Shown here in pieces: positions 5,139-13,692 of a stretch of DNA of 29,430 nt. Numbering within the stretch: the first letter of the stretch is position 1; the number at the start of each line of letters is the position of its first letter. The DNA comes from a virus. The notes below the pieces were generated by a model, which saw only the letters and a program-made list of their open reading frames with translations, was not told the DNA's origin and made no database searches. The stretch is taken from IMG/VR virus record IMGVR_UViG_3300020465_000067, positions 1 through 29,430 of that record; one strand, 5' to 3'. The position numbers and the translations under genes were made by a program.

Positions 5139-6527
5139 CTAGTTTCTTGGTATCGAATCTTTCAATAATAATGCTTCGGTAGACATTGTAGTGCCAACAA
5201 TCTTATGTGTCAACCCACCAATGACATATTTTCCACTATATTTCCTATCCACATCTGTGGTTTGATTCCTTTTATATGTTGCAGGTATAATTATATTAAT
5301 TCCATTTCCTGCATACAGATCAAGATTACCAGGAAATTTAATCATTAACTTAATATTCTTTAAAGATTCAAACCTCATCCATTGATATGCCTGAAGTTCT
5401 ACCAATTCCTCATAATTTTTTTGAGGATTATTTTGAAATTTTGGATCAAAAATTTGATTTGATAGAATAGTATATCTTGTGCGTCTTGGATAGTCAACAA
5501 TACTTTTAATTGAAGTATCTAATTGTGATAATGGATTGACCGATCCACTTTCATTTAAATGTGACATCTTTGGCCACATAACATTAATACCATAACGGTA
5601 AGCATCCACTGACATATCTGTACTCAATCCCATCTTAGATTGTGTTACAGTAACAGGATCAAACCCTATACTAAATCCTGCCCAAGCACCGTTACGCAAT
5701 CCAGTTAAGAAATCTCTCTCTTCTGGAAATACTATAGTTTCAATTTTAAATTGATCACTTTCTTCCGAACCAGATGATTTTGTTGAATACACATAGGTGT
5801 ACAACTTACTATCACCTGAAGTAAAATTAGTATCTGATTCAGTTTGATTGTTTACATCATCAATAATTTTATCAATAGACTTAAAATTAAAACCTAAACC
5901 ATTTTCATAGAAAACAAATCCATTTTGAAGAGTACCACCCTTTCTTGCTTTTCGCACTGACCTTTGTGAAAGCCAATAGATACAATCATATGGTCTCCAA
6001 TTTGTTGCTATAAACTGCTGTTTATTTGTAGATTCTTCAATATAAATCTTCTTTTTAGTGTTTATATACCTATTATCTGTTTTTAAAATTTGTTCTACAA
6101 TTTCAGAAGATGATGTAGAATTAAATACAACCTGACTATTTCCAAATACGTTAGTGATCTCATTCTGGAAAAATTCATCACTAGCACAATTAACTATAAA
6201 TGAATCTGTAGTGTTTAGTCTTGATCTTGCCTCAATATCATATGCCCGAACATAATAAACTCTATCAAGAATTGTTCCTCTAATTATAATTCTAAACTGT
6301 TCAGATCCAGTCATAGCACCTATGAATCCTGAACCATCATTAAAAAGAAGTTTTGCCTCTACAGTTGATGAAGTAATACTTTCATAGATTTCAATACCTG
6401 TAATAAAATCGTATATATCATCAGCACCATCAGAACTTTGAAGTTTCTGACCATTTCTAAAGACATTAACTTTTACCTCAACATCACCTGATTCACTTCT
6501 TCTAATACTTCCGCTTTGTGTGCTCAT
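5139..6527 (-). CDS. gp27: Baseplate hub subunit gp27
   Basis: A 462-aa protein matching the cyanophage version of T4 gp27, the trimeric hub ring that holds gp5 and joins the tail tube. Typical features are an N-terminal beta-rich domain (EVKVNVFRNGQ, FITGIEIYESI), the RVYYVRAYDIE strand, an ATNWRPYDCIYWLSQRS helix in the middle and a late KFPGNLDLYAGNGINI barrel segment. It is longer than the 391-aa T4 protein. Its ATG overlaps the stop of the upstream tape-measure-like gene as ATGA. In T4, genes 27 and 5 are separated; here only a metabolic cassette lies between them. Confidence 0.85.
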   Translation of the reverse strand: MSTQSGSIRRSESGDVEVKVNVFRNGQKLQSSDGADDIYDFITGIEIYESITSSTVEAKLLFNDGSGFIGAMTGSEQFRIIIRGTILDRVYYVRAYDIEARSRLNTTDSFIVNCASDEFFQNEITNVFGNSQVVFNSTSSSEIVEQILKTDNRYINTKKKIYIEESTNKQQFIATNWRPYDCIYWLSQRSVRKARKGGTLQNGFVFYENGLGFNFKSIDKIIDDVNNQTESDTNFTSGDSKLYTYVYSTKSSGSEESDQFKIETIVFPEERDFLTGLRNGAWAGFSIGFDPVTVTQSKMGLSTDMSVDAYRYGINVMWPKMSHLNESGSVNPLSQLDTSIKSIVDYPRRTRYTILSNQIFDPKFQNNPQKNYEELVELQAYQWMRFESLKNIKLMIKFPGNLDLYAGNGINIIIPATYKRNQTTDVDRKYSGKYVIGGLTHKIVGTTMSTEALLLKDSIPRN

Positions 6528-9139
6528 CTAAGTAAACCTCTCAAAGGATTAAGAGTGGATTGTAAAATGGATGCAATCGATCCTGAGTTTGAACCACCTC
6601 CACCAGAAGAAATCATCTGTGGTTGTCCACCACCAGAACTAGCACTAGCAACTTGTGCCAATGCTTGTTGTGCTGCTTGGATTGCTTGACTATTTACCCC
6701 ATTTTGTTGAGCAACTGCTGCCATGACTTCTTTAATCATTTCTTGACTTCTTTCAGTTACTTGACGACGTGCATCATTTCTACTTTTTGTTTGTTGCTCT
6801 AGTTTTTTCTGTTGCCTTGTTTGTTGGAATTGACTTGCAGGAGCAGAACCACTAGCACCTCTACCACCACCAATTCTCATTCCTGCAGAACTTGATGATT
6901 TTCCAAACATCTCTGCCATTTTTTTCACTTTTGGAGATAATTCTTCCTGTTTCTTTTTAGCACCATCTCCATGAGAACCTTCACGAGAACCTTCACCTAT
7001 ATGTCCTTCAAGACTATTACCACCAGCATATTCCTTACCAGCTTCTGATAAAATCGGTGTAGTACCTGATTTAGCACCAACATACTTAAAGTGAGCACTG
7101 TCAGGATTATGATTGTAAACATATTGCCAACCAAAACGTTTACCATTTGCTTTCAACCATTGATATCCTTTACCATTAATATCAAGTGCTTCACCATATA
7201 GATGATGTGAATTAGGATCTCCACCAATTTCATCGTTTTTAGATTTACTTCTACCAGAACTTGCAACATATGATCCTAGATCGATTCCAGAATCTCTCAT
7301 TGCTGCAGCAAACATTTGTGCTGCTGGTTGTGAAAATACTAGAGGTCTACCACTTTGATCCCTTGTTCCTGCAACAGTAAATCCAGAACCTGTATCAGGG
7401 TGTGATGCAGGTTTGATTGCCTTTACTTTATTTTGTGTTTTTGTCTTCTTATTACTCTTATCTGTTTGAGCACCAAATCCAAAGAAACTCTTAACACCAC
7501 CCATAAAGTTTGAGAAGATGTTACCACTCTTTCTTTGTCCCGAACCACTATTAGAAGATTCAAAACTTTGATCTTTCAAATTATTAATATCAAACCCACC
7601 AACTTTTAATGCTCTAACCATTCCTTTACTCCACTTGTCATTGAAAAATCCTTTTTTAATCTTTTCAGGATCTGCATCAGGAGAAAATGATGGAGCAATT
7701 GAGGCAATACCATCTAAAACATTACCAAAAGCATTAAAATTATTAGAATGTTTACCTGTATCATGCCAAAGACTAATATTATCTTTTACTGCACTGAATA
7801 AATTGTTATATTTTGACCAACCTTCATTATGACCCTTTCTATCAATAGTACCAAATCCTCTGTCACCTATTTGACCAAAAGCATTAGTTCTATTTGTACC
7901 AACATAAACACTTTTCTTCTTCCTAGGATTCAAATATCCTGTTTCGTTCATTGCTGAAGCAGCAACAAGTTCAGGATACTTTGCTCCTCCTGCATCTTTT
8001 GCTAATCCAAATATATGATCAAATGCACTTTTTGGCGAAAGTTTCTTAAGTTTTGGTAGGGTTCCTCCTCTATCAAAACCAGGTAAACTAAATCCCTGAC
8101 TCTTAGCTTCACCTAGTCTCTTTTGGGTTAGGTTTGGTTGTGTTTTTGTTGCAGGAGTATTAAAAGGAACGACGAAAGCTCCCCCATCTGCCTTTCTAGC
8201 AACGTACTCAGTGCCGTGTCCGATGAACGAAGTGGATCTCCCTCCATCCAATGAAACTCCATATCCTGATTGTGGTCCACTAATCCATCCTCCTTGTGCA
8301 AATGAAGGTAAGATCTTGACTTTACCACCCTGAGACTTTCCTTCTTTATCATTTGGATCAGGTTTTCCACCAGACCCATCTTCATTTAGGTGAGTATAAA
8401 GTTTATATCCTCCATAAGCAACACCTGCTAGTAATCCAAGTGCTCCAGCTCTACCTAGTAATCCCCTTCTACCTCTAATTAGATTATTATGAAGGAAAAT
8501 TAGTACATTACCAAAATCTGTAATAATTCTAGTTGGATTACTTAACCAACGCATACCCAATAATAAAGTTCCAAGTCCAGTTAATCCTCGTACAAGTCCT
8601 CCTATCTTCTCCCAAGGACTAGATTGATCTGATAGTAACGTATATAACCCTTCAATAGTATTAACAACACCAAATTCCGCAACTTTAAAGATGAACGTTG
8701 CCAACTTAGAAAGGGCTTCGATCATCCTTGCTACTTTATCCCTGTTCTTGGGATCACTCAACCATTTCAGAGCAGGAATAACAATCGCTGCTTTAATCAG
8801 TCCACTCAACATCTTGAACAGACCTTCTAACCAACTAGGTTTTTTTACTAAAGCAGCAGGACTAAATCCAGCAAAAGATTTCTTTTTTTGTGTTTTTGTA
8901 TAGTTTGCTTCAAAATCCTTTAGAGATTTCCTTGAAAGTACTAACTTTTCAAGTTGAATCTTTTTAAAATCGTTAACGATTACTGCAATAGAATTTACAG
9001 TTGCACCCAAATTATTGATAGCGACAGTATTCGAAATAATGGGTTTCAACTCCATTTTCGTTTTTGCACTAACATTAGGTACCTGTACCTGTACAAACTT
9101 GTAGAAATTAATTTTTGAATTTTTTCGTATAGTTGCCAT
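6524..9139 (-). CDS. Tape-measure-like tail protein with two peptidoglycan hydrolase domains
   Basis: An 871-aa protein. The N-terminal 230 residues (NLGATVNSI, WLEGLFKMLSGL, WLSDP, hydrophobic helices) are paralogous to the upstream 932-aa protein and resemble a tail-internal/tape-measure region. Residues about 375-510 look like a glucosaminidase or lysozyme-type domain, with a likely catalytic Glu399 in the motif AMNETG. Residues about 580-690 look like an M15/VanY peptidase, with the zinc motif HxxGxAxD (H646...D653) and DxxH (D680...H683). The C-terminus is Gly/Ser/Gln-rich. The ATG overlaps the upstream stop as TAATG. Inference: it is carried inside the tail and opens the cell wall at infection, a job done in T4 by the gp5 lysozyme. 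Confidence 0.75.
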   Translation of the reverse strand: MATIRKNSKINFYKFVQVQVPNVSAKTKMELKPIISNTVAINNLGATVNSIAVIVNDFKKIQLEKLVLSRKSLKDFEANYTKTQKKKSFAGFSPAALVKKPSWLEGLFKMLSGLIKAAIVIPALKWLSDPKNRDKVARMIEALSKLATFIFKVAEFGVVNTIEGLYTLLSDQSSPWEKIGGLVRGLTGLGTLLLGMRWLSNPTRIITDFGNVLIFLHNNLIRGRRGLLGRAGALGLLAGVAYGGYKLYTHLNEDGSGGKPDPNDKEGKSQGGKVKILPSFAQGGWISGPQSGYGVSLDGGRSTSFIGHGTEYVARKADGGAFVVPFNTPATKTQPNLTQKRLGEAKSQGFSLPGFDRGGTLPKLKKLSPKSAFDHIFGLAKDAGGAKYPELVAASAMNETGYLNPRKKKSVYVGTNRTNAFGQIGDRGFGTIDRKGHNEGWSKYNNLFSAVKDNISLWHDTGKHSNNFNAFGNVLDGIASIAPSFSPDADPEKIKKGFFNDKWSKGMVRALKVGGFDINNLKDQSFESSNSGSGQRKSGNIFSNFMGGVKSFFGFGAQTDKSNKKTKTQNKVKAIKPASHPDTGSGFTVAGTRDQSGRPLVFSQPAAQMFAAAMRDSGIDLGSYVASSGRSKSKNDEIGGDPNSHHLYGEALDINGKGYQWLKANGKRFGWQYVYNHNPDSAHFKYVGAKSGTTPILSEAGKEYAGGNSLEGHIGEGSREGSHGDGAKKKQEELSPKVKKMAEMFGKSSSSAGMRIGGGRGASGSAPASQFQQTRQQKKLEQQTKSRNDARRQVTERSQEMIKEVMAAVAQQNGVNSQAIQAAQQALAQVASASSGGGQPQMISSGGGGSNSGSIASILQSTLNPLRGLLR

Positions 9140-11937
9140 TATTTCATTCGCTCAAGTAATGAATTAGGTGCAGTTATTACTATTTGGTTACCACCAGTAT
9201 TTATTGCTACTCCTTGAGGGATAGGAACAATCTTCTCAATGATCGTGGGAATAGGAATAAATTCCATAGCTTGTTCCATAGCATATTCAGCAGAAATACC
9301 ACCTTCACTTAGTGCTTGCTGATGTACCGACTTTACTGCACCAAGAACTTTAGGATCGATACCCATCTCTGATGCAATTTGTGTTAGAGCAGTAATCTTA
9401 TCTCCACCACCAAACAGACCAGTAACTGCCTTAAGGACTCCTCCCATACCCTGTTGTTCTGCAATATTAGTAATTAAACCCATAGGATCTTGCCTAAATG
9501 AGTCTATCATTGCCATTCCCTTCGTAACCATCGCACCCATTTCAGGATTGAAAGCACTTAAAGCACCTCCATAATTACCATCCATAATATTTTGAGCAAT
9601 ACCACCCCACTTAGGATTGAATGTATTTAAAGCACCCATATAGTTGCCACTCATAACATCACCAGCAATACTACCCCACTTTGGATTGAATTGACTTATA
9701 CCACCAGTGATAGCAGCAGCATAATTACCACTCATAAGATTACCTGCTACCTGACCCCAAGGACTAGCCATAAAGTTCTGGACTTGACCTACTACTCCTC
9801 CCACACCAGGAATCATACTCAACGCACCTAAAGGATTACCACTAGCAACCATGTTAAGTCCCGCCATGATTGGGGCAGCACCAGGAATAAAGGATGCTCC
9901 AATTTGAACTATAGGATTACTAATTACCTTACTAACGGTTTTCTTAATACCCTTCCATAGACCACCAAGGAACATCTCTTGAGGTTTTTTCTTTCTGTTT
10001 GGAAATAAGTCAAGAAAATCCCACCATTGATTTTTCTTAATTTCGTCAGTTTGTTTATCTTTTGGTAAAGGTTCTGTTTTATCTTTACCAGTAAACACTC
10101 CTGCAAAATCCCACCATGCCTTTTTACCCTTCTTACTCTCCTTTTCTTCTTCCTTTTCTTCATCACTCTTAAATGGACTCATAAGTGTATTAACAATCGT
10201 ACCAAGACCAGGTAACTTAGATAAAACCTTATCAATACTATCTTTAAATCCCCTTAATCCCATAGCATCGACTACTGCTTCTTCACCTTGTTGTAATTGA
10301 GGAACAAAGTCACGAACGAACATGTATCCATCCATAAGCATGGATATAACACTAGTAGCACCAGCAGTAGCAAGACCAAATACATCCAAAATACCAGAAG
10401 TACCTTCAATCAATCCACCGATAGAATCACCTTGTGAAAAACGTTGATATGCAAAGAAAAGGTTTACAAGACCACCAACAACAGGAAGAATTGCTGCTGC
10501 TCTCTTTCCTAATTTACTACCCGCCTTTGCAATACCCTCAAAACCAGCAATACCTTTCTTTCTAAGAACATCCGCTGCCTTATCCATGCCAGGAATCTTC
10601 ATCAAACCATCCATCAATCCCTGACCAATTGCTTTGGCTTTATTACCAATTGGTTTAATAATTGGTTCAAGAGGTTTTAATACTTTTTCTTGAAGATATT
10701 TTCTAGCACCAGATTTAAGACCCTTCATTCCATCATTAAATTTATCTCCTGCCTTAGCATAAGTTCTTGTACCCCAATCTGAAATTGCATTACTTGCTTT
10801 AACAACATTATCCCAACCTTTTTGAGCATGTTTTGATAAATTTTTATATTGATCTCCTGCCCAAGCAGGTAAATTTCTTAGAGTTTTGTTAACAGTACCA
10901 GCAAAATCCTTGGTTTTTTGAACACCAGAATCAAAAAGACCTGTAAAGAAATCCCCAGCTTTCTGTAATCTTGTTGGTTTGTATACTACTGGTTTTAAAT
11001 TAAGTCTTCTCCATGCCTTTAATGCTTTTGCGGCATCACCACCAGCATTGTTTAATGCATTGGCATATGCTCTAGCAGCATCATCACCGTATTCTGCAAG
11101 AATCTTCTTATATTGTTTTGCTGCTGCTTCACCAAACTGATCAGCAATAGTTTTTACTCTAACTCTACCCCTAGGTCCATCTATATTAGGATCAGCACCA
11201 GATGGATTTTTGGCTGATGGTCTATTATTATAATTCTTAGGTTTCTTCGGTTTCCCTAAATCTCCACCACCAAGTAAATCGACTAATCCTAAAATATCTG
11301 TTATAAGACTAAATGGGTTCATCAGGTACTTTAACCCGATCAAACCCTTCATTATATTTCCAATACCACCTAATCTCTCTGCAAATGTCCCATTAGGATC
11401 CGTTAAAGAAGAAAATCCGTCTAGAATATTGTTAGTAAATCCTGCTGCCCAACCAAATAGTTTTTTAAAGACAAAGTGCGTCTTCTCTAGAAAAACTGTT
11501 AATTTCTCAATATTAGCAGGATCTGATACCCATTCAAGTATTTCCTTTGTAATAGCAAATTTAAATAGTCCACCAAGAAATTTTCCAATCGGTGCTAAAA
11601 ATTTTTCTACCCAACTAAGACTACCCTTAGCAATCTTTAAGGATCTTTTGGTTAATTTGGGTTTTCGTTTTGCTGCCTTCTTATTTTCTATTGCTTCTTC
11701 TGCCGCCTGATCTAATTCTCTTCTTTCTCTGCGACGTTCTGCTTTTGCTCTTAACCTATCATTCTTAATTTGAGCAATTGAAATTTTCTCTATATCACTA
11801 ACAACCGTTCCTATTCCAGAAATTGTACTCCCTAGTCTATTCAATGCTAAGGTTTGTTTTCTTGCAGCAGCAACTGTTGGAGATTTCGTATTTGAAACTC
11901 CAGGATTTACAAATTTATAGGTTTGTAATTTAGCCAC
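9139..11937 (-). CDS. Tape-measure-like tail/hub protein (gp29 position)
   Basis: A 932-aa protein with a GTG start at 11937 overlapping the end of the gp51-like frame. It opens with coiled-coil, Lys/Arg-rich sequence (residues 55-100), then hydrophobic helices (WVEKFLAPIGKFLGGLFKF, WVSDP, LMNPFSLI) matching the paralogue downstream, then long amphipathic helical segments. Near residues 725-796 are three tandem copies of a 23- to 26-residue repeat. Length, helical content and position directly after the gp26/gp51 chaperone-like genes point to the tape measure, as T4 gp29. A second paralogue follows with a TAATG overlap. Whether one or both measure length is unknown. Confidence 0.7.
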   Translation of the reverse strand: MAKLQTYKFVNPGVSNTKSPTVAAARKQTLALNRLGSTISGIGTVVSDIEKISIAQIKNDRLRAKAERRRERRELDQAAEEAIENKKAAKRKPKLTKRSLKIAKGSLSWVEKFLAPIGKFLGGLFKFAITKEILEWVSDPANIEKLTVFLEKTHFVFKKLFGWAAGFTNNILDGFSSLTDPNGTFAERLGGIGNIMKGLIGLKYLMNPFSLITDILGLVDLLGGGDLGKPKKPKNYNNRPSAKNPSGADPNIDGPRGRVRVKTIADQFGEAAAKQYKKILAEYGDDAARAYANALNNAGGDAAKALKAWRRLNLKPVVYKPTRLQKAGDFFTGLFDSGVQKTKDFAGTVNKTLRNLPAWAGDQYKNLSKHAQKGWDNVVKASNAISDWGTRTYAKAGDKFNDGMKGLKSGARKYLQEKVLKPLEPIIKPIGNKAKAIGQGLMDGLMKIPGMDKAADVLRKKGIAGFEGIAKAGSKLGKRAAAILPVVGGLVNLFFAYQRFSQGDSIGGLIEGTSGILDVFGLATAGATSVISMLMDGYMFVRDFVPQLQQGEEAVVDAMGLRGFKDSIDKVLSKLPGLGTIVNTLMSPFKSDEEKEEEKESKKGKKAWWDFAGVFTGKDKTEPLPKDKQTDEIKKNQWWDFLDLFPNRKKKPQEMFLGGLWKGIKKTVSKVISNPIVQIGASFIPGAAPIMAGLNMVASGNPLGALSMIPGVGGVVGQVQNFMASPWGQVAGNLMSGNYAAAITGGISQFNPKWGSIAGDVMSGNYMGALNTFNPKWGGIAQNIMDGNYGGALSAFNPEMGAMVTKGMAMIDSFRQDPMGLITNIAEQQGMGGVLKAVTGLFGGGDKITALTQIASEMGIDPKVLGAVKSVHQQALSEGGISAEYAMEQAMEFIPIPTIIEKIVPIPQGVAINTGGNQIVITAPNSLLERMK
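9550..9765 (-). repeat. Three tandem ~23-residue repeats inside the tape-measure-like gene
   Basis: The encoded segment repeats the pattern [N/S]P-x-W-G-x-[IV]-A-x-x-[IVL]-M-x-G-N-Y-x-x-A-[IL] three times (26, 23 and 23 residues), followed by a partial NPEMGAM. The pattern is visible in DNA as recurring antisense copies near 9570, 9640 and 9730. Tandem repeats of this kind could change tail length if units are gained or lost. Confidence 0.85.
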
Positions 11938-12154
11938 CAGATGCTTGTTGCTCCTTCATTCTACGTTCCTCTTCTTTAAGGAAATTAACTAACAAATTCA
12001 CGTAGATCTCCTTTTCCCAAGGCATCAGATTATCGATATGAGCGATACTCCATTTATGATGATGCATTAAGGAAAAGTTTCCTTCATAATAAGCCTGTAG
12101 ATTGGTGTGAAGAAGAGCTATTCGAAAAAACTCGCTAGACCCTCCAATACAACA
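11930..12154 (-). CDS. gp51: gp51-like baseplate hub assembly frame, probably read by -1 frameshift from gp26
   Basis: An open frame of 74 codons between gp26 and the tape-measure-like gene, at the place of T4 gene 51. It contains HTNLQAYYEGNFSLMHHHKW and MPWEKEIYVNLL, then a basic/acidic tail KEEERRMKEQQ. There is no ATG, GTG or TTG before the internal ATG at 12067, although the conserved-looking sequence extends upstream of that ATG. The frame is exactly minus 1 to gp26 at a T TTT TTC site (12130-12124). Slippage there would fuse gp26 residues 1-234 to 64 residues of this frame, giving 298 aa. Alternatives are a rare ATT/ATA start or a short 45-aa product from the internal ATG. The frame ends inside the start of the next gene. 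Confidence 0.7.
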   Translation of the reverse strand, partial: CCIGGSSEFFRIALLHTNLQAYYEGNFSLMHHHKWSIAHIDNLMPWEKEIYVNLLVNFLKEEERRMKEQQASGG

Positions 12155-12825
12155 TCACTTTCAACTCCAGTATTAGGGTTAGTAACCTTAACAGTATGAG
12201 TCAATTTAGGCATTTTCTCAAAGAACTCTTGAATCATCATAAATTGCTTACTATTCAATTGATCAAAAAATTCTAGCAGTTCCTTTTGAGGAATGTTAGA
12301 ACAATCATAAACTTGATTAGCATCAGAAATTGATTCCACACAACTTGCTGCCATATCAAAAACCTGATCAACACCAGCTTCATCACCAAAATTCATTTGA
12401 ACAAATGTTTCAAGACTGGGGTATCCCATCGTAATAGCAACTTCATCAGAAATTTTAAGATCTTTTTTATGACCTCTAGTCTTCTTGACTTTAATTTCGT
12501 CTAAGGGAATTGAGACTGATACAGTAGTTTCGTCATCATCAGGACAAGTTACAGTGACATCAACACTTTCACCAACAGATTTTGTGCGAATCTGTAAGAA
12601 AACGAATTCAATGTCAAATGTGGCAAGTTTATCTACATCGGTAATGTCTGTACAATCTTTGATAATATCTTTGATTGCTTCAACAATAGTAGCTTGTTCA
12701 CCACTTTCAGTAGCTAAGAGAAGGATTTTCTCCTCCTTTACAAGAAATGGTCTAAAATTCACAGTTCTACCGTCTGAAGGTAGTTTCAATTTGTACTTAG
12801 GTACACTAATCTTAGGTAATGCCAT
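12118..12825 (-). CDS. gp26: Baseplate hub subunit gp26
   Basis: A 235-aa protein of the T4 gp26 baseplate family (PF12322 type), needed for assembly of the hub and probably acting as chaperone for the tape measure. Characteristic stretches are the start PKISVPKYKLKLPSDGRTV, FRPFLVKEEKILLLA, the DIEFVFLQIRTKSVGE region and the terminal segment EFFEKMPKLTHTV. The ATG at 12825 lies 22 nt from a CCTAAATA promoter-like site. Two codons before the stop the gene contains T TTT TTC, which could send ribosomes into the gp51-like frame. Length is close to T4 gp26 (208 aa). Confidence 0.85.
   Translation of the reverse strand: MALPKISVPKYKLKLPSDGRTVNFRPFLVKEEKILLLATESGEQATIVEAIKDIIKDCTDITDVDKLATFDIEFVFLQIRTKSVGESVDVTVTCPDDDETTVSVSIPLDEIKVKKTRGHKKDLKISDEVAITMGYPSLETFVQMNFGDEAGVDQVFDMAASCVESISDANQVYDCSNIPQKELLEFFDQLNSKQFMMIQEFFEKMPKLTHTVKVTNPNTGVESDVVLEGLASFFE
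12124..12130 (-). promoter_or_regulatory. Predicted -1 ribosomal frameshift heptamer T TTT TTC
   Basis: Minus-strand bases 12130-12124 read T TTT TTC, in phase with gp26 codons AGT-TTT-TTC-GAA-TAG. This is a classical X XXY YYZ slippery site. The minus-1 frame continues straight into the gp51-like frame. About 45 nt downstream is a possible hairpin, AAGGAA-ACTT-TTCCTT. Lambda G/GT uses the same logic directly before its tape measure gene. Confidence 0.65.
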
Positions 12826-12846: not shown

Positions 12847-12854
12847 TATTTAGG
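12847..12854 (-). promoter_or_regulatory. Late-type promoter CCTAAATA upstream of gp26
   Basis: CCTAAATA, with the TAAATA core of the late promoters, lies 22 nt before the gp26 ATG and overlaps the gp54 stop. A shifted AATAAATG is also present. The same CCTAAATA octamer precedes gp4 and gp32. Confidence 0.45.
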
Positions 12855-13692
12855 TGTTTCCAGTGACAGTCAATACTTCGTTATTTGCAGCTAAGGTGAT
12901 TGTTTGGTTATTGGAAGTTGATTGATCGGTACTATTATCAATTCCAGAACCAACAGTAAGGAATTGAATAGTATCCTGATCAAACCTATCAGCAGTATAG
13001 AATCTATATCTCTCATAGTAGAATCCTACACTCAAAGTCATTGTCTGAGCATTAGAGTTATTCAACTGAATCGAACCAATATTATATGGATATAAATTCC
13101 TAAGTTCCCAAGCAGCAGTTAATTGATACTTTCTTGCCAATAATATATCTGCGTTTCCACTTTCTCTTATAGAAGCAATTAACTCAGGATCACTAACTGC
13201 TAAACCTCCACCACCTCTTTCCCACTTATAAATCATCATTTTAGGACAAACATAATCATTATAATATCTTGTATATTGCTCACTATCGCTTGCCATCAAG
13301 GTTGTCCATCTCTCAAAGAAGTTTCTTGAATACTGAGAACGTGGCATTCTAAATTGTATACTAATCTGACTATATGCTGTATTTGTTGCATACTTAAATG
13401 GTGATCCAACATAAGGAGTTTGTGAAGTAGTAATCTGCTTACTTGGAAGATTTACAGTATCAGCATAGTAATCAAGTAACCATTCCAAATCATTAGACAT
13501 ACCAATATCAAATTTTTCAGTTTGAACTGGTCCTAGAAAATTTGCTGGTGTATAAGTTCTCATCATACTCGGTGACATAAATCTGACCGAATATAAATTG
13601 GTAAAACTAGGAGCATTGTCTTTGCCCTTTGTTCTAGATATAAACTCCTGAAATGAAGGATATCTTGCTCCTTGAGGATTTGGGATTGACAT
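12850..13692 (-). CDS. gp54: Baseplate tail tube initiator gp54
   Basis: A 280-aa protein matching cyanophage gp54, which caps the hub and starts tube polymerisation. Supporting features: an N-terminal FTNLYSVRFMSP strand like the T4 gp54 TNMFSVVF segment, a central SISIQFRMPRSQ-type strand pair (QISIQFRMPR), ARKYQLTAAWELRNLYPYNIG and a late MTLSVGFYYERYRFY strand. These are the tube-protein fold elements shared with gp19, gp48 and gp54. The ATG overlaps the gp4 stop as TAATG. The tail of the protein is Thr/Asn-rich. Confidence 0.8.
   Translation of the reverse strand: MSIPNPQGARYPSFQEFISRTKGKDNAPSFTNLYSVRFMSPSMMRTYTPANFLGPVQTEKFDIGMSNDLEWLLDYYADTVNLPSKQITTSQTPYVGSPFKYATNTAYSQISIQFRMPRSQYSRNFFERWTTLMASDSEQYTRYYNDYVCPKMMIYKWERGGGGLAVSDPELIASIRESGNADILLARKYQLTAAWELRNLYPYNIGSIQLNNSNAQTMTLSVGFYYERYRFYTADRFDQDTIQFLTVGSGIDNSTDQSTSNNQTITLAANNEVLTVTGNT

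Follow-up and report, generated by a model that had tools for sequence, protein, structure and literature searches.

Probable -1 frameshifting at the junction of gene 26 and a gene 51-like frame in a T4-like phage

The window analyzed here, the whole 29,430-nucleotide stretch of IMG/VR virus record IMGVR_UViG_3300020465_000067 from a marine T4-like cyanophage, carries a gp51-like reading frame that has no start codon at its head, which raises the question of how this frame is translated. The frame overlaps the end of gene 26 (12118..12825, minus strand), the short tail-assembly-chaperone form (TAC-N) of 235 aa, which was matched over its whole length by PF12322 (E=2.1e-77) and also by phrog_150, baseplate hub (E=1.8e-89), and which ends in a zero-frame TAG stop (12118..12120, minus strand). 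The -1 frame stays open on the minus strand between 12154 and 11930, and its first ATG, GTG or TTG is the ATG at 12067 (12065..12067, minus strand), codon 30 of the open frame. The match of this frame to phrog_634, baseplate hub assembly catalyst (E=9.1e-32), begins at residue 8, ahead of any start codon. The minus strand at approximately 12145 to 12116 is GGAGGGTCTAGCGAGTTTTTTCGAATAGCT, which in the gp26 phase reads GAG GGT CTA GCG AGT TTT TTC GAA TAG, so that one codon (GAA) separates an in-phase T TTT TTC slippery heptamer (12124..12130, minus strand) from the gp26 stop. An earlier note on this DNA had described a gp51-like frame without ATG, GTG or TTG before 12067, lying exactly -1 to gp26 at this heptamer, and had predicted a 298-aa gp26-gp51 fusion. 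Rereading of the frames agreed with the first statement, the second is seen in the sequence, and slippage at 12130-12124 would give 234 + 64 = 298 aa, the 64 added residues (11930..12124, minus strand) running RIALLHTNLQ...QQASGG to a stop. The frames thus imply a short and a C-terminally extended form of one protein.

As a bare 7-mer, TTTTTTC was not enriched in the window (13 seen compared with 13.45 expected), and the argument therefore rests on its phase and its conservation. In coding phase it was found once in the 8,589 codons of the window, at the gp26 junction. For conservation, a set of 80 IMG/VR loci and further loci from named phages and distant queries was clustered at 85% DNA identity, giving 69 representatives. 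Two of these lacked the heptamer, one T4 relative and the Vibrio phage K452. The other 67, which belong neither to the T4 branch nor to one Vibrio group, all had TTTTTT in phase, with C as the next base in 61, T in 5 and G in 1. Carriers included Kyanoviridae, Pelagibacter phage HTVC008M, Vibrio phage KVP40, Aeromonas phages phiAS5 and phiWae14, Cronobacter phage S13, Sinorhizobium phage phiM7, Rhizobium phage RHph_Y68 and Pseudomonas phage pf16. Loss of the heptamer in close relatives, which the earlier note had named as an outcome that would speak against slippage, was not observed, both close and distant relatives having kept it.

The form xxT TTT TTC was present at 61/67 junctions, compared with 3/258 of the remaining Phe-Phe sites in these loci. 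An invariant third base was found in only 2 of 230 gp26 codon columns, both of them third-base Ts of the heptamer, and the codon before the Phe pair varied in residue (Ser, Asp, Ala, Asn) while always ending in T. The C of TTC was the most over-conserved third base among the 230 columns (91% against 33% expected, z=10.1), and over-conservation at the three slip codons reached z values of 10.1, 6.0 and 5.8, which are rankings rather than probabilities because the lineages are not independent. The 230-column test and the Phe-Phe comparison indicate conservation beyond codon usage and protein constraint. Judged from these alignments, the heptamer at the gp26/gp51 junction is not due to chance, and slippage at the end of gene 26 appears to be conserved across distant T4-like phages.

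The -1 frame was open across the next 54 codons in 104/104 loci, and both other frames contained stops in all of them. This layout bears on the proposal that the two frames are a sequencing or assembly error in the T run of a gene that is really single-frame. The junction does sit in a homopolymer, and one locus on a 236-kb IMG/VR contig (L049:3001-3894) has gp26 and gp51 in a single fused frame of 297 aa because its slip site has lost two bases, which points to a fusion that has become fixed or to an error of assembly. However, the identical two-frame layout was found in all 104 loci, including the isolates P-SSM7, KVP40, HTVC008M and S-CRM01, and these independent genomes effectively refute the error reading, the probability of which we consider negligible.

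In the window's clade, the -1 codons that follow the slip site and precede the first ATG of the window had a median dN/dS of 0.136, with dS saturated in many pairs, and were under purifying selection. An HMM trained on the -1 peptide with T4 sequences left out matched the C-terminus of T4 gp51 (E=2.2e-6), and in T4-like gp51 proteins the aligned region began at model position 2, corresponding to the slip codons. The open, protein-like stretch upstream of 12067 that the earlier note had reported was therefore borne out by its openness in 104/104 loci, its dN/dS and its conserved residues. These findings also bear on the possibility that gp51 is a separate gene whose translation reinitiates, or initiates by coupling, at an internal start just past the gp26 stop. 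Of the 67 representatives, 47 had an in-frame start codon no more than 15 codons from the slip site, in many cases an ATG five codons past it. In addition, the heptamer is missing from the PF12322-type gene of the Vibrio phages K452 (L090:3680-3760) and 207E48.1 (L120:2260-2340), with 61 related records, and the overlap of the stop with TAATGATG in these two phages points to coupled initiation rather than slippage. In contrast, 20/67 representatives, the window included, had no start within 15 codons, yet their upstream residues were conserved. Start positions in the -1 frame were not conserved among the representatives, and the ATG at 12067 is replaced by Ile in P-SSM7 (L084) and in locus L002; it is not a credible universal start, and the comparative checks named in the earlier note did not refute frameshifting. 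Selection on the peptide upstream of the first ATG, and its match to T4 gp51 from the slip codons onward, speak against a separate gene, and reinitiation leaves the heptamer unexplained. Furthermore, the covarying hairpin of a sister clade, described below, includes part of the +5 ATG. We therefore consider a separate gene highly improbable and programmed -1 frameshifting at the gp26/gp51 junction very likely, as judged from comparative sequence evidence.

Public records begin gp51 at internal ATGs in P-SSM7, HTVC008M and phiAS5 and leave it out for ACG-2014d and S13 (loci L084, L085, L087, L089 and L091), and a conserved part of the protein is missing from databases for this reason. Frameshifting would explain why cyanophage gp51 has been annotated as a stub of 30 to 60 aa with arbitrary starts, or not at all.

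The sequence around the slip site was compared for elements that may stimulate slippage. The Glu codon of a conserved Glu-Gly was GAG in 72% of sequences, against 29% expected, the second highest of the 230 columns; GAG before Gly elsewhere in the same loci reached only 24%. The enriched codon yields GAGG or GGAGG ending 10 nt before the heptamer, in the window a Shine-Dalgarno-like GGAGG (12141..12145, minus strand), and is a possible 5' stimulator. A Shine-Dalgarno-like element approximately 10 nt upstream of the slip site is the arrangement of the dnaX stimulator. On the other side, 52 sequences of a sister clade share a hairpin of 7 bp that begins 9 nt past the heptamer. Its pair 21-35 was UA in 23, GC in 16 and AU in 7 sequences, and covariation amounted to 30 doubly changed cells compared with 10 +/- 2 in shuffles. 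Slid versions of the hairpin dropped to 19-52% paired, and RNAalifold alone recovered the inner four pairs. It is this hairpin that takes in part of the +5 ATG. The window's own clade lacked the downstream hairpin, and single-sequence folds there differed between relatives.

Resemblance to the Escherichia coli dnaX cassette consists in the upstream element at approximately 10 nt and, in some relatives, the downstream hairpin. The differences are that the slip site here is T TTT TTC, not A AAA AAG, that the product would be long rather than truncated, and that no hairpin was found in the window's clade. Against frameshifting, U UUU UUC need not work efficiently as a shift site in cyanobacteria, the downstream hairpin is missing from the window's clade, and the heptamer is absent from T4, its close relatives and one Vibrio group.

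The same elements help to separate ribosomal slippage from transcriptional slippage on the six-T run as the source of the long form. The run is homopolymeric, and six Ts can in principle realign. Six bases is nevertheless short for polymerase slippage, and a longer T run would have suited it better than the C found after the six Ts in 91%. The phase of the heptamer, the Shine-Dalgarno-like element at 10 nt and the covarying hairpin are also in keeping with slippage by the ribosome, and we regard the transcriptional route as highly improbable, much like a separate gene.

The T4 proteins provide a comparison. PF12322 matches both T4 gp26 (208 aa) and T4 gp51 (249 aa), the latter being matched by phrog_634 as well. 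Because both belong to PF12322 and the C-terminus of gp51 corresponds to the cyanophage -1 frame, T4 encodes the short (gp26) and the fused long (gp51) forms as two genes. These are separate and divergent, without a heptamer, and require no frameshift. Cyanophage gp51 has been described as lacking the first ~200 residues of T4 gp51 (Sullivan et al. 2010, PMC3037559); these residues correspond to gp26, and frameshifting would therefore explain the gap. A T4 review describes gp26 and gp51 as hub assembly chaperones, gp51 being essential and absent from the particle (PMC3004832). One T4-like genome (L105:2983-3760) has its gp51 gene broken into two frames, 126 and 153 codons long. T4 gp26 (L082:7803-8429) was in addition weakly matched by phrog_1140, the family of the gp28 hub distal subunit (E=9.4e-4), possibly a sign that a third hub protein is related.

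The neighbors of gene 26 were considered with respect to function. Upstream lies a tail-tube-like gene (12850..13692, minus strand; phrog_45, E=1.6e-58), whose family also holds T4 gp54 as a fragment; the principal tube protein, gp19, was not shown as a neighbor. Downstream lies a tape-measure-like gene (9139..11937, minus strand), the GTG start of which overlaps the end of the gp51-like frame; it was matched over its full length by phrog_790, labeled endolysin, and in part by phrog_167, tape measure (E=6.5e-9). The window order of tube-like gene, chaperone and tape-measure-like gene is that of lambda V-G-T-H, and the gene downstream in HTVC008M matched several tape-measure families. The large proteins encoded at 9139-11937 and 6524-9139 are adjacent and share N-terminal similarity (phrog_790, phrog_1200 and related families); both are labeled endolysin, though one resembles a tape measure protein, and they are possibly duplicated.

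An AlphaFold model based on the naturally fused L049 protein was confident, with a pLDDT of 85.6. The alignment used for it contained gp26 and fused rows only, separate -1 peptides having been left out because MAFFT misplaced them against gp26. A PDB fold search with the model gave no significant match; the highest-probability entry was 3fgx (E=2.9, probability 0.41), with an rmsd of 1.9 over 52 columns, a weak match in a comparison with the HK97 gp13/YqbN/Rbstp2171 fold. The entry 3fgx has been grouped with tail assembly chaperones (PMC9603447), and the modeled likeness is only suggestive of a chaperone. A search of solved structures by sequence found nothing relevant, and the best matches in a BFVD search, run as a sanity check, were only gp26-type hub proteins and unnamed phage proteins.

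The lambda G/GT design invoked by the earlier note held for the gene order and for the T4 homologues. As in lambda gpG/gpGT (Xu, Hendrix and Duda 2004; review PMC5009743), there is a short form and a -1 extended long form, the slip site lies a few codons before the stop of the short form, and the locus sits between tube-like and tape-measure-like genes; likewise, the homologue gp51 is absent from the T4 virion. The differences are that no sequence relation to lambda G/T was detected and that the system is found here in a contractile T4-like phage, with T TTT TTC as slip site and a Shine-Dalgarno-like element upstream. From comparative evidence, we consider it likely that the gp26/gp51-like system is a lambda G/GT-type tail assembly chaperone in this phage. 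The 2016 review described the G-T frameshift as widely conserved except in T4 (PMC5009743). The earlier note knew of no such fusion in T4-like cyanophages, a claim of novelty that falls at the level of kind because Vladimirov, Gautam and Davidson (2022, Virology 566:9-15), as cited in PMC10885494 and PMC12846349, are credited with identifying T4-like phage tail assembly chaperones and poly-T signals. According to PRFect, that work describes a short gene together with a fused one in some T4-like phages, and the phage Adele paper credits it with poly-T -1 signals in T4-like TAC-N genes. The gene family is apparently the one described here, and on these citing accounts a lambda G/GT-type chaperone made by -1 frameshifting in T4-like phages is largely prior art.

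In the mechanism that we infer, from slippage itself and its rate to the roles of the stimulators and the chaperone function in this phage, genes 26 and 51-like would constitute one tail-assembly-chaperone gene. Most ribosomes would terminate at the gp26 stop, giving the short form, and a minority would pause at T TTT TTC, aided by pairing of the GGAGG 10 nt upstream with 16S rRNA and, in some relatives, by the hairpin 9 nt downstream. The two Phe tRNAs would then slip back one base, producing the 298-aa long form with its gp51 domain. If the parallel with lambda gpG/gpGT extends to assembly, the tape-measure protein made from the neighboring gene would be coated by numerous short copies and a few long ones, which would recruit tube subunits and then leave the particle.

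More tentatively, and with a chance that we place slightly short of even, frameshifting may be the ancestral T4-like state, given up later in the T4 branch when duplication produced gp26 and gp51. The junction would then be an ancient recoding cassette of three parts: GAGG ending 10 nt ahead of the slip site, the T TTT TTC itself and, within a single large clade of cyanophages, a covarying hairpin over part of the only nearby ATG. If this is true, the stimulator elements and their distribution would be new details, and the T4 branch would offer a natural case of a frameshift gene replaced by a gene pair. Identification of gp26 and gp51 as one chaperone system would also suggest what the two T4 proteins, which have been described as hub assembly factors without a clear function, may do, namely act as the short and the long tail chaperone.
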